A program made the position numbers and the translations under genes. Positions 6,706-14,250 of a stretch of 64,000 bases of DNA are shown piece by piece. Position 1 is the stretch's first letter, and every line of letters starts with the position of its first letter. The notes below the pieces were generated by a model, which had not been told where the DNA came from, made no database searches, and saw only the letters and a program-made list of their open reading frames with translations. The DNA comes from Eubacterium sp. (GTDB lineage Bacteria > Bacillota > Clostridia > Lachnospirales > Lachnospiraceae): NCBI GenBank assembly GCA_017539165.1, contig JAFYHN010000108.1, forward strand, positions 36,126 to 100,125. Direction: 5' to 3'.

Positions 6706-6734
6706 TTGTAACTGCACTTCTTTTGTTTTATACT
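6706..6734 (+). promoter_or_regulatory. Promoter of the ATP synthase operon
   Basis: -35 TTGTAA (6706-6711), a 17-base spacer and -10 TATACT (6729-6734). The predicted transcript begins near 6741. This excludes the upstream in-frame TTG at 6723 and makes ATG 6741 unlikely as the atpB start. Confidence 0.7.
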
Positions 6735-6782: not shown

Positions 6783-7628
6783 TTGGACAAGGGAAAAAGA
6801 ACCAGATTCCTAGTAATCGTGGGTATGATTCTGGTACTGCTCCTGGTCGGTATTATTGCAACGAATAAGGGAGGAGAGCATAGAGAAACTCTTCAGGAAG
6901 TTATGAGAGATGCTGTTCTTCATGAGGACAACAAGATGTACTTCTTTGGACTTGCTGTTAATCCTTCTCTTGTTTCGGGTTATATAACAACAGCAATACT
7001 TCTTGTATTTGCTCTTATTGTTAGAATATTTGCCTTACCTCGTTTTAAGATTGTGCCGGGTAAGTTTCAGGCACTGATAGAGATGTGGGTAGGATACTTT
7101 GATAATCTGGCCAAAACGAACAGTCCGCATCTGAATAGTATCCTTGGAGCATATGTTTTTGCGGCGGGATCTTATATCTTTGTAGGAACGATATTCGAGC
7201 TTTTCGGAGTTCAGGGCTTAACTACAGAGGGATATCCGATGGCATTTCCTGCACCACTTGCTGATATAAATGGTGCAATAGGAATGGGTGTATTCTCATA
7301 CCTGTTTATTATGTCAGGAGGTATCATAGCAAATAAGATCAAGGGAGTTGGACTTACACTTAAAGAGTATTCACTTCCTATATCAATGAGTTTCCGTCTT
7401 TTCGGAGCGCTTTTATCAGGAGCACTTGTTACAGAACTTGTTTACTATACTTTCTGTCTCAGCTTTGTGCTTCCGGTTATCGTTGGTGTTCTGTTTACAC
7501 TCATCCATGCGGTGGTTCAGGCATACGTACTTACAATGCTTACGTCGATATATTATGGAGAGGTTTCAGAGGTTCACGAGAAGAAAAAGAAAGAAAAGAA
7601 ACAATCCGAAGTTGCAGCGGAGGCATAA
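6783..7628 (+). CDS. atpB: ATP synthase Fo subunit a
   Basis: About 281 residues, five to six membrane helices. The start chosen is TTG 6783, nine bases after AAAGGAG; upstream in-frame starts overlap the promoter. Subunit a forms the ion half-channels against the c ring. Family marks are the segment EYSLPISMSFRLFGALLSGA with the essential Arg in helix 4, and the C-terminal helix LIHAVVQAYVLTMLTSIYY. There is a hydrophilic N-terminal arm and a lysine-rich tail. No atpI gene precedes it; the upstream neighbour is a rhomboid protease. Confidence 0.95.
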   Translation: MDKGKRTRFLVIVGMILVLLLVGIIATNKGGEHRETLQEVMRDAVLHEDNKMYFFGLAVNPSLVSGYITTAILLVFALIVRIFALPRFKIVPGKFQALIEMWVGYFDNLAKTNSPHLNSILGAYVFAAGSYIFVGTIFELFGVQGLTTEGYPMAFPAPLADINGAIGMGVFSYLFIMSGGIIANKIKGVGLTLKEYSLPISMSFRLFGALLSGALVTELVYYTFCLSFVLPVIVGVLFTLIHAVVQAYVLTMLTSIYYGEVSEVHEKKKKEKKQSEVAAEA

Positions 7629-7689
7629 GTGCTCTTCGGCTATATATTATGATAGATATAAATTACTAAAAAATGAAAGAGGTAATATC

Positions 7690-8064
7690 ATGAAGCTTAT
7701 TAAGAAATCAATATTAACAGTTGCGATCTTTTTTGCAGCATTCACACTTTTCTCAGCAGTAGCTCCTGCGGCTATAACACATGCAGCTGGAGAAGCAACA
7801 GAGGAAACAGCTGAGGAAACAGAGGAAAAGGAAGATAATTCAAAAGGTGCTAAGGCTATAGCTGCGGGTCTTGCTATCGGACTTGCTGCAGGTGCGGGTG
7901 CAATAGGTATGGGACTTGCAGTAGGTAAGTCAAATGAAGGTATTGCTCGTCAGCCTCAGGCCGAGGGAGCAATCAGAACAACAATGATCCTTGGTATCAT
8001 CTTTATTGAGACAGCTATTATCTATGCACTTATTGTTTCGATACTTGTTATATTCGTCCTATAA
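7690..8064 (+). CDS. atpE: ATP synthase Fo subunit c with N-terminal signal-like extension
   Basis: 124 residues, against 70-90 for most c subunits. ATG 7690 follows AAAGAGGT. Residues 1-33 look like a secretory signal (basic start, hydrophobic core, AITHA then AGEA), and 34-50 form a very acidic linker (EETAEETEEKEDN). The usual hairpin follows: helix 1 around 55-80, the polar loop ARQPQ, and helix 2 with the ion-carrying Glu107 in FIETAII. The Gln that completes Na+ sites in helix 1 is replaced by Met74 (AIGMGLAVGK), while Glu-Thr is kept, so H+ or Na+ coupling is undecided. Confidence 0.93.
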   Translation: MKLIKKSILTVAIFFAAFTLFSAVAPAAITHAAGEATEETAEETEEKEDNSKGAKAIAAGLAIGLAAGAGAIGMGLAVGKSNEGIARQPQAEGAIRTTMILGIIFIETAIIYALIVSILVIFVL

Positions 8065-8125
8065 CGTAGAAGGAATCTGACAGTTATATTTCAGTAAATT
8101 AGTTATTATATTGAGAGGTAAAAAA

Positions 8126-8602
8126 ATGCCATTAGGAATAGATTTTACACAGATTTTACTGCATATGTTCAACGTAGTGATTCTCTTCGCTGGTATGTAT
8201 GTGATTCTATACTCTCCTGTTAAAAAGTTTATGCAGCAGAGAGAAGAGCATTATAAAGAACTTGATGAATCAGCACAGAACAAGCTTGCTGAGGCAGAAG
8301 AGAAGAACGCTGAATATGAAGAGAAGCTTAAGAATGCTGAGTCAGAGATATCACAGCAGAAGAAGAAAGCATCTATGGATATAGCTGCGATGAGATCTAG
8401 TGCTGAAGCTGAGGCAAGAAGTGCAGCTAACAAGATTATTGAAGAAGCTAAGAAGGATGCTGAGAATCAGAGAAAGGCTATCGTTGAATCAGCTAAGAAG
8501 GAAATAACAGAAATGGTTGAAGAGGCAACACGTAAGGTTGTTCTCGTAGAAAATACCGATGAAGCATATGATATGTTTCTTAACATCGCTGAAAGGAGCT
8601 AA
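8126..8602 (+). CDS. atpF: ATP synthase Fo subunit b
   Basis: 158 residues from ATG 8126, preceded by GAGAGGT; an in-frame TTG 15 bases earlier lies on the ribosome site. One N-terminal membrane helix (about 10-30) is followed by a long charged coiled coil rich in Glu, Lys and Ala, the peripheral stalk. The tail (ATRKVVLVENTDEAYDMF) would normally contact subunit delta. Only five bases separate its stop from the alpha gene, leaving no room for atpH. Confidence 0.93.
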   Translation: MPLGIDFTQILLHMFNVVILFAGMYVILYSPVKKFMQQREEHYKELDESAQNKLAEAEEKNAEYEEKLKNAESEISQQKKKASMDIAAMRSSAEAEARSAANKIIEEAKKDAENQRKAIVESAKKEITEMVEEATRKVVLVENTDEAYDMFLNIAERS

Positions 8603-8607
8603 TTAAA

Positions 8608-10362
8608 GTGGCAGAAGAGAAAACAATTAGTGCCCTTCTTTATGCTCCGACAGAACCTGATGAGGCCCGTAAGGCCAGACTGAATGCTTTTGTAGCCGAA
8701 AAGTACGGAAGTGAAATTGAGCTTGAGTGGATTGAAGATAAGAATATCGAAAATGGTTTCAAGCTTGTTGTTGGTGAAGAAGTATATGACTGGACTAAGG
8801 AAGGAAGATTTCATCAGCTGGAAGGAATGCTCAGAAATCTGAAGACTGAAAAGGTTTCCTCAGGTAAAGAGCTTATCTCCCTTATGAAGAGCAGTGTTCA
8901 TGAGTGGGAACCTCAGGTTGTATCTGAAGAAGAAGGTCATGTAAAAACAGTCGGAGACGGAATCGTCTTTGTAGATGGTCTCAAATCCGTTATGTACGGT
9001 GAGATAGTTATATTTGAGTCAGGTGTCAGAGGAATGGTTCAGGAACTGAGACCGGACGATATAGGTGTTATCCTTTTTGGTGATGATACTGAAGTTACAG
9101 AAGGAAGCAGGGTTCTGAGAACCGGAAAAACAGCTGGAATACCAGTTGGAGATGGATTCCTCGGAAGAGTTGTAGATCCACTTGGTAATCCTATCGACGG
9201 AGAAGGACCGATTGAATCAGAAGGGTACAGAGCTGTTGAGACAGCTGCTCCGGGAATCGTTGAGAGACAGTCTGTTGATACACCTATGAATACAGGTATT
9301 CTTTCAATCGATTCAATGTTTCCTATAGGTAGAGGACAGCGTGAGCTTATCATCGGAGACAGACAGACCGGTAAGACAGCTATCGCACTTGATACGATAC
9401 TTAATCAGAAGGATAACGGAGTTATCTGTATATACGTTGCCATCGGACAGAAGGCAAGTAGTGTAGCACAGCTTGTAGGTACACTTAAGAAGAAGGATGC
9501 ACTCAGCTATACGATCGTTGTTGCGGCAAATGCATCCGAGACAGCACCTATTCAGTATATTGCTCCCTATTCAGGAACAGCACTTGCTGAATACTTCATG
9601 TGGAAGGGCAAGGATGTTCTTATAGTTTATGATGATCTGTCAAAGCATGCTATTGCTTACAGAGCACTTTCACTTCTTCTGGAAAGATCTCCGGGACGTG
9701 AGGCTTATCCGGGAGACGTATTCTATCTCCATTCAAGACTGCTCGAGAGATCAGCACGTCTTTCTGAAAAGGTAGGTGGAGGAAGTATAACAGCACTTCC
9801 TATAGTAGAAACACAGGCGGGTGATGTATCAGCGTACATCCCTACAAATATCATTTCCATCACAGATGGACAGATATTCCTTGAGAGTGATCTGTTCTTC
9901 TCGGGACAGAGACCAGCCGTTAATGTAGGTCTTTCGGTATCCCGTGTTGGTGGTGCGGCACAGACAAAGGCCATGAAGAAGGCTGCAGGTAGTCTTCGTC
10001 TTGATCTGGCACAGTATCGTGAGATGGAGATATTCACTCAGTTCTCAAGTGATCTTGATGAGACAACGAAGAAACAGCTGGCATATGGTCAGGGACTTAT
10101 GTATCTGCTTCGTCAGCCACAGAACAATCCGTTTAAACCTCATGAGCAGGTTATTATCCTGGTTGCTGCATCTGCACATGTTATGCAGGATATACCAGTT
10201 GATAATATCGGAGATTTCCGTACGAAGCTTCTTCAGTTCTTCCATGAGGAAGAGGATGCGCTGTGCAAACAGATTGACGCAACAGGTCAGCTATCGGATG
10301 ACGATAAGCAGAATATTATTGATGCAGCTAATAAGTTTAAAGAAAGCTATGTGATTGATTAA
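8608..10362 (+). CDS. atpA: ATP synthase F1 subunit alpha with fused delta C-terminal domain
   Basis: 584 residues, about 80 longer than normal. GTG start nine bases after AAAGGAG. From about residue 80 it is ordinary alpha: SSGKELISLMKSSV, the P loop GDRQTGKT near 251, and VGGAAQTKAMKK. The extra front end matches the C-terminal domain of subunit delta: ELEWIEDKNIENGFKLVVG then VYDWTKEGRFHQLEGML follow the delta pattern (Asp-Lys, Gly-x-x-x-x-x-G-x-x-x-x-D-x-S/T-x-x-x-R-x-x-x-L). No atpH gene exists in the operon. The six-helix N domain of delta, which caps the F1 head, is not seen. The reading frame is unbroken, so this is not a sequencing frameshift. Confidence 0.94.
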   Translation: MAEEKTISALLYAPTEPDEARKARLNAFVAEKYGSEIELEWIEDKNIENGFKLVVGEEVYDWTKEGRFHQLEGMLRNLKTEKVSSGKELISLMKSSVHEWEPQVVSEEEGHVKTVGDGIVFVDGLKSVMYGEIVIFESGVRGMVQELRPDDIGVILFGDDTEVTEGSRVLRTGKTAGIPVGDGFLGRVVDPLGNPIDGEGPIESEGYRAVETAAPGIVERQSVDTPMNTGILSIDSMFPIGRGQRELIIGDRQTGKTAIALDTILNQKDNGVICIYVAIGQKASSVAQLVGTLKKKDALSYTIVVAANASETAPIQYIAPYSGTALAEYFMWKGKDVLIVYDDLSKHAIAYRALSLLLERSPGREAYPGDVFYLHSRLLERSARLSEKVGGGSITALPIVETQAGDVSAYIPTNIISITDGQIFLESDLFFSGQRPAVNVGLSVSRVGGAAQTKAMKKAAGSLRLDLAQYREMEIFTQFSSDLDETTKKQLAYGQGLMYLLRQPQNNPFKPHEQVIILVAASAHVMQDIPVDNIGDFRTKLLQFFHEEEDALCKQIDATGQLSDDDKQNIIDAANKFKESYVID

Positions 10363-10386
10363 TTCAGGAAAGCTTGTGTATAGATT

Positions 10387-12680
<2,294 letters not shown>

Positions 12681-12682
12681 GA

Positions 12683-13093
12683 ATGGAAACATTTAAGTGT
12701 AGGATAATTGAAGCGGATGATACCTTCTATGAAGGCGAGATGGTTTCGCTGATAGTTCCCGCCTGCGACGGTTACTACGGTGTTCTTGCCAAGCATCAGA
12801 ATGTGGTAGTTGCTATCATTCCGGGGCTTCTGAGGTTTCAGACGGAAGATGGCGAGTGGCATGATGCTTCTGTTTCGGATGGAATGATGAGAATAGAGGA
12901 CGGAGATGTTCTGGTCCTTGTTGATTCTGCGGAGTGGCCATACGAGATAGATGAGGAAAGAGTAAGAGCCAAGGAGGCTGCTGCCAGAGAGGCTATGCTT
13001 CAGAAGAGGAGCATAAGAGAATATACACTTGCAGAAGCAAGTCTGAAGAGAGCGGTATCGAGATTAAGGATTAAAGAGAATGACCTCGGATAA
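12683..13093 (+). CDS. atpC: ATP synthase F1 subunit epsilon
   Basis: 136 residues, two bases after atpD. The N-terminal beta barrel (FYEGEMVSLIVPACDGYYGVL) and the two-helix C-terminal domain (from about residue 90) are present. This is the rotor subunit that joins gamma to the c ring and can inhibit ATP hydrolysis. Its last 14 bases are shared with the start of the next gene in another frame. Confidence 0.94.
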   Translation: METFKCRIIEADDTFYEGEMVSLIVPACDGYYGVLAKHQNVVVAIIPGLLRFQTEDGEWHDASVSDGMMRIEDGDVLVLVDSAEWPYEIDEERVRAKEAAAREAMLQKRSIREYTLAEASLKRAVSRLRIKENDLG

Positions 13094-13527: not shown

Positions 13528-14250
13528 ATGGATAATGATAATATGAATCCTTATGATCCATATGGTGGTCAGGAACCTGTTAATCCTTATGAGGGTGGAC
13601 CGGAGCCGGTTAATCCATATGAAGGAACGCCAGGACCGATGAATCCATATGATGGAGCTGTGCAGGAACCGGTAAATCCATTTGAAGGACCGGCACAAGA
13701 ACCAATGGATGCGGCTGAAGGAGCAACATCTGAACTTAAGAATCCGTATTTGGGAACAGATCAGAGTAATCCTTATGGAATGCCTGACCAGAATAATCTG
13801 TATGGTACACCTGTTCAGAACGATCCTTATGGAACGCCGATACAGAATAACGATCCTTACGGAACGCCTGTACAGAATAATGATCCTTACAGTACGCCGA
13901 TTCAGGGGATTCCATATAATCAGACACAGCAGCAGAATCCATATTCTGGAGGGGTTAGGTCAGATTATCAGGCTGGATATCAAAATGGATATCAGAATTA
14001 CGAGACGCTTCCGGAAGACGGAAAAGCTTTAGCTGGCCTTATCTGTTCGATCAGTTCGTTTGTATTTTGTTGTTTCGGAATTATCATTGCGCCTGTAGGA
14101 ATCGTGCTTTGTAAACAGGCAATTGATGCCGGAAATACTGGTTCTAAGGCTAGAGTTGGGATGGTTCTTGGAATAGCTGGGCTGGTTGTGAATATTTTGG
14201 CTATAATTTTTACTATTATAGCAGTGATAGCAGGTGGAATGTCAGTATAA
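13528..14250 (+). CDS. DUF4190-type membrane protein with Asn-Pro-Tyr repeat N-terminus
   Basis: 240 residues. The first ~150 are low-complexity: repeats of the kind NPYEGxPEPV, followed by NDPYGTPVQN. From about 165 come two membrane helices with the DUF4190 layout: GLICSISSFVFCCFGIIIAP, then a polar loop, then GIAGLVVNILAIIFTIIAV. Such proteins are common in Gram-positive bacteria, with a cytoplasmic proline-rich arm of unknown role. AGGGAGG precedes the ATG. It is the last gene before the repeat-bounded block. Confidence 0.75.
   Translation: MDNDNMNPYDPYGGQEPVNPYEGGPEPVNPYEGTPGPMNPYDGAVQEPVNPFEGPAQEPMDAAEGATSELKNPYLGTDQSNPYGMPDQNNLYGTPVQNDPYGTPIQNNDPYGTPVQNNDPYSTPIQGIPYNQTQQQNPYSGGVRSDYQAGYQNGYQNYETLPEDGKALAGLICSISSFVFCCFGIIIAPVGIVLCKQAIDAGNTGSKARVGMVLGIAGLVVNILAIIFTIIAVIAGGMSV
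13540..13930 (+). repeat. In-gene repeats coding NPY-rich low-complexity arm
   Basis: Imperfect units of about 33 bases encode NPYEG-P-EPV-like blocks, then shorter units encode NDPYGTP. The units differ at third positions, so the array is old or selected at protein level. Confidence 0.7.

Follow-up and report, generated by a model that had tools for sequence, protein, structure and literature searches.

An F-type ATP synthase operon with no gene for the delta subunit raises two questions: where did delta go, and how many peripheral stalks would the resulting enzyme carry? We studied such an operon in a 64,000-nucleotide stretch of DNA (the window) from a Eubacterium sp. of the family Lachnospiraceae. 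The initial annotation of the window had proposed that the C-terminal domain of delta is joined to the front of alpha and that the N-terminal domain of delta is dispensed with. Here we ask whether this is correct, how widespread the arrangement is, and what it may do to the enzyme.

Results

The operon and the fused gene

The window encodes a complete F-type ATP synthase at about positions 6783-13093, with Pfam matches for all seven subunits and every gene on the forward strand (Table 1). The proposed order (a-c-b-alpha-gamma-beta-epsilon, with the delta gene absent) holds, and so does the spacing of five bases between b, which ends at 8602, and the GTG start of alpha at 8608. This GTG has a Shine-Dalgarno score of -7.9 kcal/mol. 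Just downstream of the operon, at 13528-14250, is a gene for a protein with a repetitive front that is rich in N, P, Y, and G and with hydrophobic C-terminal stretches.

Table 1. The ATP synthase operon of the window and the parts of its fused alpha chain.
Feature	Positions	Strand	Remarks
atpB, subunit a	6783..7628	+	PF00119 9.3e-17; probable TTG start at 6783 picked by eye; ORF opens at 6723
atpE, subunit c, 124 aa	7690..8064	+	PF00137 on residues 57-119
atpF, subunit b, 158 aa, ordinary length	8126..8602	+	PF00430 4.3e-14
atpA, fused gene: delta C-terminal domain + alpha, 584 aa, GTG start	8608..10362	+	PF00213 + PF02874 + PF00006 + PF00306 in a single frame
Delta/OSCP C-terminal domain, about residues 3-81 of the alpha chain	8614..8850	+	
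Alpha N-terminal helix, residues 86-99, kept after a short linker	8863..8904	+	H86-99 in the AF2 full-length model
Ordinary alpha body (barrel, nucleotide-binding, and C-terminal domains)	8920..10338	+	PF02874 105-173, PF00006 230-445, PF00306 452-577
atpG, gamma	10387..11295	+	PF00231 9.7e-90
atpD, beta	11292..12680	+	PF00006 1.8e-74
atpC, epsilon	12683..13093	+	PF02823 4.8e-18, PF00401 5.1e-7

The alpha model TIGR00962 matches the window's alpha from residue 87 onward, which leaves about 80 extra residues at the N-terminus. Residues 3-72 align to positions 99-169 of the 172 positions in the OSCP/delta profile (PF00213). On the whole chain this match is just above the cut-off (23.3 bits vs. 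22.3), and on residues 1-100 alone it reaches 27.7 bits (E = 3.4e-6). When the N-terminal part is modelled by itself, the predicted fold is that of the delta C-terminal domain (pLDDT 64.7, pTM 0.44), and in the AF2 model of the full-length chain, residues 80-83 have pLDDT below 50 and would form a linker. By the profile of this lineage's deltas, the six-helix N-terminal domain is absent from the chain.

Comparisons to known structures point the same way. A profile of 55 fused N-termini, run against 177,635 PDB sequences, had 9jc1_I as its top match (E = 1.8e-10), and the match runs across the whole junction (8-109 on 4-109). Foldseek with the full-length model gave 9jc1_I, 9jc1_K, and 9jc1_J as the three best matches (570-572 columns, E = 7.4e-53 to 5.7e-50). 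VIA-align with the full-length model returned alpha bodies, and 9JC1 was not among the matches listed, whereas Foldseek ranks it first. This entry is an engineered fusion of the same kind, as discussed below. Since the Pfam match, the fold, and the PDB profile match agree, we conclude from profiles and models that the N-terminus of alpha is the C-terminal, b-binding domain of delta/OSCP, with the binding to b itself being predicted.

The search for another delta in the source genome

The source genome is 3.2 Mb in 112 contigs and is 99.54% complete, with 4.17% contamination. A search of it with the OSCP profile gave three matches at E ≤ 10, of which only the one in alpha was above the cut-off. 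Nor did a profile of 12 delta N domains find a match in this genome (G000). In control genomes, the same profile matched the delta types of this lineage at 1.3e-36 (G263) and 3.2e-34 (G153). Its matches to deltas of the ordinary type (frames of 187-192 aa in G153, G073, G160, and G088) were weak (E = 5e-5 to 0.03). The test is therefore strong only where delta is of this lineage's type. Among the ten genomes searched with it, G000 and G043 had no match, and G068, G219, and G142 had weak ones (E = 0.09-0.4). Thus the genome search yields no other delta above the cut-off and no free N domain, in line with what the initial annotation expected of both atpH and the N domain.

Besides a single F-type alpha/beta pair, the source genome encodes another pair that is V-type-like, and there is a fifth, more distant match. 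The second pair (G000:C20:28112-30294) has frames of 596 and 465 aa and appears to be V-type by size and order. A profile search of this genome for Rnf gave no match over the cut-off.

Fused alphas in the family and beyond

To see how often alpha carries part of delta, we used PF00213 and the window's N-terminus to search 299 genomes of the family and fetched 100 regions from the match lists, one of which (L133) has no ATP synthase gene. With the window included, this gave 100 alphas from 93 genomes, which were chosen and are not a random sample. Of these operons, 64 are fused and 36 are unfused. The whole of delta precedes alpha in 20 operons (669-756 aa), just the C domain precedes it in 43, including the window (576-642 aa), and b plus the C domain precede it in one (778 aa). 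When a profile was built from the lineage's 29 separate deltas, its matches took in the N domain in all 20 whole-delta fusions and were confined to the C domain in all 43 C-domain-only fusions and in the b-fused one. In other words, the N domain is absent from 44 of the 64 fused operons, counting the b-fused one. Where a b gene is present, no more than 78 nt separate it from alpha in the fused operons (63), vs. 429-642 nt in the unfused ones (35).

The whole-delta fusions are L066, L067, L069, L072-L074, L076-L078, L080-L082, L085, L086, L088-L090, L094, L099, and L100. In such enzymes, each F1 would have three N domains in competition for a single central position. The alpha of L074 (756 aa) also has a long, charged C-terminal tail that is rich in lysine, glutamate, and alanine.

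We also scanned named genomes with six C domains. This gave 112 stretches, of which 106 were confirmed and the best 80 were kept. Because the scan pattern was derived from C domains of the fused type, it selects for such loci. In the best 80 of the 106, the C domain precedes alpha in 80 of 80 and a separate delta is present in none; within the limits of the contigs, the genes run a-c-b-alpha-gamma-beta-epsilon. There are a few exceptions: L181 is interrupted by a run of N at the junction, and it is the only one of the 78 loci with b in this set whose gap to alpha is above 150 nt (242); b is missing from L162 and L168, at a contig end; and the c frame of L186 begins upstream of a. These best 80 of 106 come from Lachnospiraceae, rumen genomes labelled Eubacterium, Oscillospiraceae, Christensenellaceae, Mogibacterium, other Clostridia, and one genome labelled Acholeplasmatales. 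The closest named record among them is a Eubacterium sp. bin from water-buffalo rumen (L146), with 84% identity to the window in the C domain and 95% in alpha. Some records have the names of strains, not of metagenome bins (AC2031, NE2001, LC2019, FE2018, and G41). Because C-domain-only fusions recur in 43 of the 100 family operons and in the best 80 of 106 scan loci, the layout is beyond chance. The fusion of the C domain is frequent in Lachnospiraceae and other Clostridia, and this is new here, as are the range of layouts among the relatives, the repeated origin of the fusion, and the fused b of one genome, all described below.

Some relatives with the fusion also have an ordinary enzyme. 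Judged by the best OSCP E-value of each genome, 24 of the 43 with a C-domain fusion contain a further, strong match (below 1e-30), 17, including the window's genome, have only matches weaker than 1e-12, and two (G075 and G256) are in between. In the seven of those 24 that we read (L046, L048, L050, L052, L054, L056, and L058), the other match lies in a separate operon, whose delta is 179-187 aa long and whose alpha is 500-508 aa long. So in these seven relatives, the delta elsewhere belongs to another enzyme.

In one genome (G068, 96% complete), b is fused too. A single frame of 778 aa (L103 5656-7992, in G068:C33) encodes b, membrane segment included, followed after a short linker by the delta C domain and alpha; the operon has no b gene, and a search of the genome with the ATP-synt_B profile found no other b over the cut-off. 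If the chain is real, the ratio of b to alpha would be fixed at 1:1, unless the chain is cut or translation also starts internally. The 61 genomes searched included no second species of this genus, and an error in assembly or sequencing is therefore possible.

Subunit c of the window (7690-8064) has an N-terminal extension, in which a part that by eye resembles a signal peptide is followed by an acidic part. Each of the 20 operons in the window's clade has a c frame of at least 105 aa, vs. 0 of 79 other family operons, fused ones included, where frame lengths are upper limits and the window's own length was entered by hand. Such frames are also found in all 75 scan loci with an ORF for c, among the best 80 of 106.

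Evolution of the fusion

The relatives show three states: a separate delta, a whole delta fused to alpha, and the C domain alone fused to alpha. A D-W-S/T motif is typical of the fused C domain and is also in 20 of the 29 separate deltas from the same divergent operon lineage (with tails read by eye; a first-match script counts 18 of 29) and in none of 7 ordinary deltas. Because the motif was already in the lineage's separate deltas and is absent from ordinary ones, the fused domain most likely descends from the neighboring delta.

We built a quick tree from the alpha bodies, without their N-terminal part (100 rows), in which 43 of the 97 inner branches are open. The layout states cluster on this tree, with 13 changes vs. 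a mean of 45.2 when shuffled. With two very long branches (L127 and L141) left out, a single clade of all fused rows in the family is not rejected (p = 0.887), and neither is a single origin of the C-domain-only state (p-AU = 0.079). On the quick tree itself, several C-domain-only rows lie among whole-delta rows, and L068 joins two whole-delta fusions on a starred branch. This suggests that the N domain was lost more than once.

Other classes of the phylum also have fused alphas (L280-L288, from four family codes), with C domains of the DGS, DAS, or DGT type. In three of these genomes there is, in addition, an operon that has a separate delta (L296-L298). A test on 49 chosen rows, 28 of them fused and with the group defined by domain layout, rejected one clade for all fused alphas, Clostridial and L280-L288 together (p-AU = 0.0004). 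L282 had been labelled as full by its length, and we counted it as C-domain-only, as its profile match covers just the C domain. Because the single clade is rejected, we conclude from these chosen rows that a fusion with the N domain missing evolved at least twice in the phylum.

Discussion

An engineered enzyme with the same layout

The top structural match, PDB 9JC1, was made in the laboratory. Ueno et al. (2025, Nat Commun 16:5410; PMC12229609) modified the FoF1 of Bacillus PS3 by removing the N domain of delta and fusing delta residues 105-178 to the front of alpha, with no free delta (delta-deltaN-alpha; PDB 9JC1 and 9JC2). They asked if the N domain, with its position on the three-fold axis, is what restricts the enzyme to one stalk. 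The engineered enzyme carried as many as three stalks and as many a-subunits. Gels gave an average of about two, and cryo-EM gave 1.26 stalks per particle. Its H+/ATP ratio was 5.8, vs. 3.0, and it balanced at about half of the usual force (68 vs. 133 mV at Q = 2.5). Their engineering showed that the N domain sets the number of stalks, and they suggested that nature may have taken the same route. Their Discussion points to Acidaminococcus fermentans and to UniProt entries G4Q3K6 and A0A1I2C5T3 as natural delta-alpha fusions that probably have several stalks, and this part of the text does not name the Lachnospiraceae.

Like the window's alpha, the engineered chain has the delta C domain before alpha, no N domain, and no free delta in the enzyme, and according to the same passage the fusion of A. 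fermentans also lacks the N domain. Unlike the window's enzyme, the PS3 enzyme is man-made and has had the C-terminal domain of epsilon removed, and the multi-stalk state was measured there, while the window is known from its genes. The layout and the multi-stalk idea are thus both in print already, with the natural case as a prediction, and the window is a further natural member. In the excerpts that we retrieved from open-licence literature on delta-alpha fusions or the Lachnospiraceae, the fusion is treated by Ueno et al. only: the text seen from PMC5709465 mentions a b/delta fusion and no delta-alpha one, and that from a comparison of Roseburia (PMC7478625) has nothing on delta.

How many stalks?

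The reading that we favor, and consider fairly probable, is that of an F-type enzyme in which delta has lost its N domain, the b-binding C domain of delta is the covalent N-terminus of alpha, and several stalks assemble. Because the engineered chain can dock one b2 per alpha, we infer that the natural one may do likewise. Each F1 head would then offer three equivalent docking sites for b dimers, and nothing on the three-fold axis would hold the number of stalks at one. Two or three b2 stalks could assemble, each with its own a-subunit on the c-ring, and more ions would cross per ATP. Such an enzyme might work at a low ion-motive force, either as a synthase or as an ATP-driven pump, which would suit fermenting gut bacteria. 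The initial annotation had guessed at altered stator symmetry and stoichiometry, and by analogy this agrees with the measurements on the engineered enzyme of the same layout.

Alternatively, all three alphas might carry the C domain while just one b2/a unit is bound, either because a and b are limiting or because the first stalk hinders the others. The fusion would then replace the anchor that the N domain provides and save a gene. As Ueno et al. (PMC12229609) state, no ATP synthase known to date has more than one a-subunit; the engineered enzyme itself showed just 1.26 stalks per particle in cryo-EM, which counts against the reading that we favor; the a and b genes of the window are ordinary and present once each; and the 20 operons with whole-delta fusions, which keep the N domain, imply that a fusion is viable without a symmetric top. 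On the other hand, the engineered counterpart took up about two stalks on average by gel (PMC12229609), and the N domain that would limit the number is missing from most of the fused family operons, as noted above. We view a single stalk as possible but clearly the less probable outcome. Given that 20 of the 64 fused operons retain the N domain, selection for many stalks need not be the reason for the fusion itself; by the argument of Ueno et al., the N domain in those enzymes should still limit them. Conserved positions of b were also compared by class.

Another way to avoid three docking sites would be a mixture of alpha chains: if an internal start or proteolysis yields free alpha, then perhaps one alpha of the three would carry the C domain. 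A strong Shine-Dalgarno sequence with a start codon (-6 kcal/mol or below) lies within the 28-codon junction in 13.4% of 142 fused genes, vs. 7.6% of 710 core windows, and four loci (L185, L189, L193, and L214) share a strong internal start at the same place. The test is rough, in that just 35% of real starts, both of the 37 counted as separate and of the 142 fused (taken at the first in-frame start codon), reach this threshold, and it addresses internal initiation and not proteolysis. (The broken alpha of L181 was counted as separate, and L182, which is cut by a contig end, was left out.) Against the mixture, the junction and core medians are alike (-1.5 and -1.6). The window's own junction has two in-frame ATGs, but these are weak (-3.3 and -2.1, vs. 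-7.9 at the real start). Internal initiation as a general rule is unlikely because 47 of the 142 fused genes have no ATG, GTG, or TTG in the junction, and we doubt that mixed chains account for these enzymes.

Finally, although PF00213 is only just over its cut-off and the N-terminal part modelled alone scores as given above, it is hardly credible that the extension is not delta, that a normal delta is encoded elsewhere, or that the fusion is an assembly error, as the profile, fold, and genome searches agree and the same layout is found in many other assemblies.

Other rotary ATPases

In mycobacteria, delta is joined to b, keeps its N domain, and is present in one copy per enzyme, and in the A/V-type ATPases the peripheral stalks are made of E/G subunits, which are separate chains. 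The window's enzyme is unlike the A/V-type ATPases in that its subunits are F-type. It resembles the mycobacterial b-delta fusion (NF009961; PDB 7JG5 and 8J0S) in that the delta C domain is covalently on a stator subunit, and these two structures are among the PDB matches of the profile of fused N-termini. The window's b is not itself a b-delta fusion (18.7 vs. a cut-off of 328 for NF009961).

The N-ATPases (alternate F1Fo) also lack a delta gene and have an extra part, which is on b rather than on alpha; the excerpted text of PMC5706428 describes them as being without delta and having a longer b. The end of the N-ATPase b model (TIGR03321) matches the window's C domain weakly (16.2 bits, E = 0.007). 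The window's operon is not of this kind: its alpha scores 606.6 bits against the N-ATPase model (TIGR03324), for which the cut-off is 750.5, and its b, at 158 aa, scores 42.1 vs. 224.7 for TIGR03321, the long b with a delta-like end.

The ATP synthase of Chloroflexus aurantiacus (PDB 9ITJ/9ITK) has 12 delta chains in 6 entries, with chains S and W both in 9ITK, so it is possibly another enzyme with more than one delta. No paper on it was among the literature matches listed.

Implications

The F-type enzymes described to date carry a single stalk and a single a-subunit. A large natural set of fusions, with intermediates and with the N domain gone, means that the prediction of Ueno et al. can be tested in real organisms. 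If it is true of these bacteria, then the textbook ratios of ions to ATP would fail for many bacteria of the gut and rumen, and the energy yield of their fermentations would need to be recalculated.
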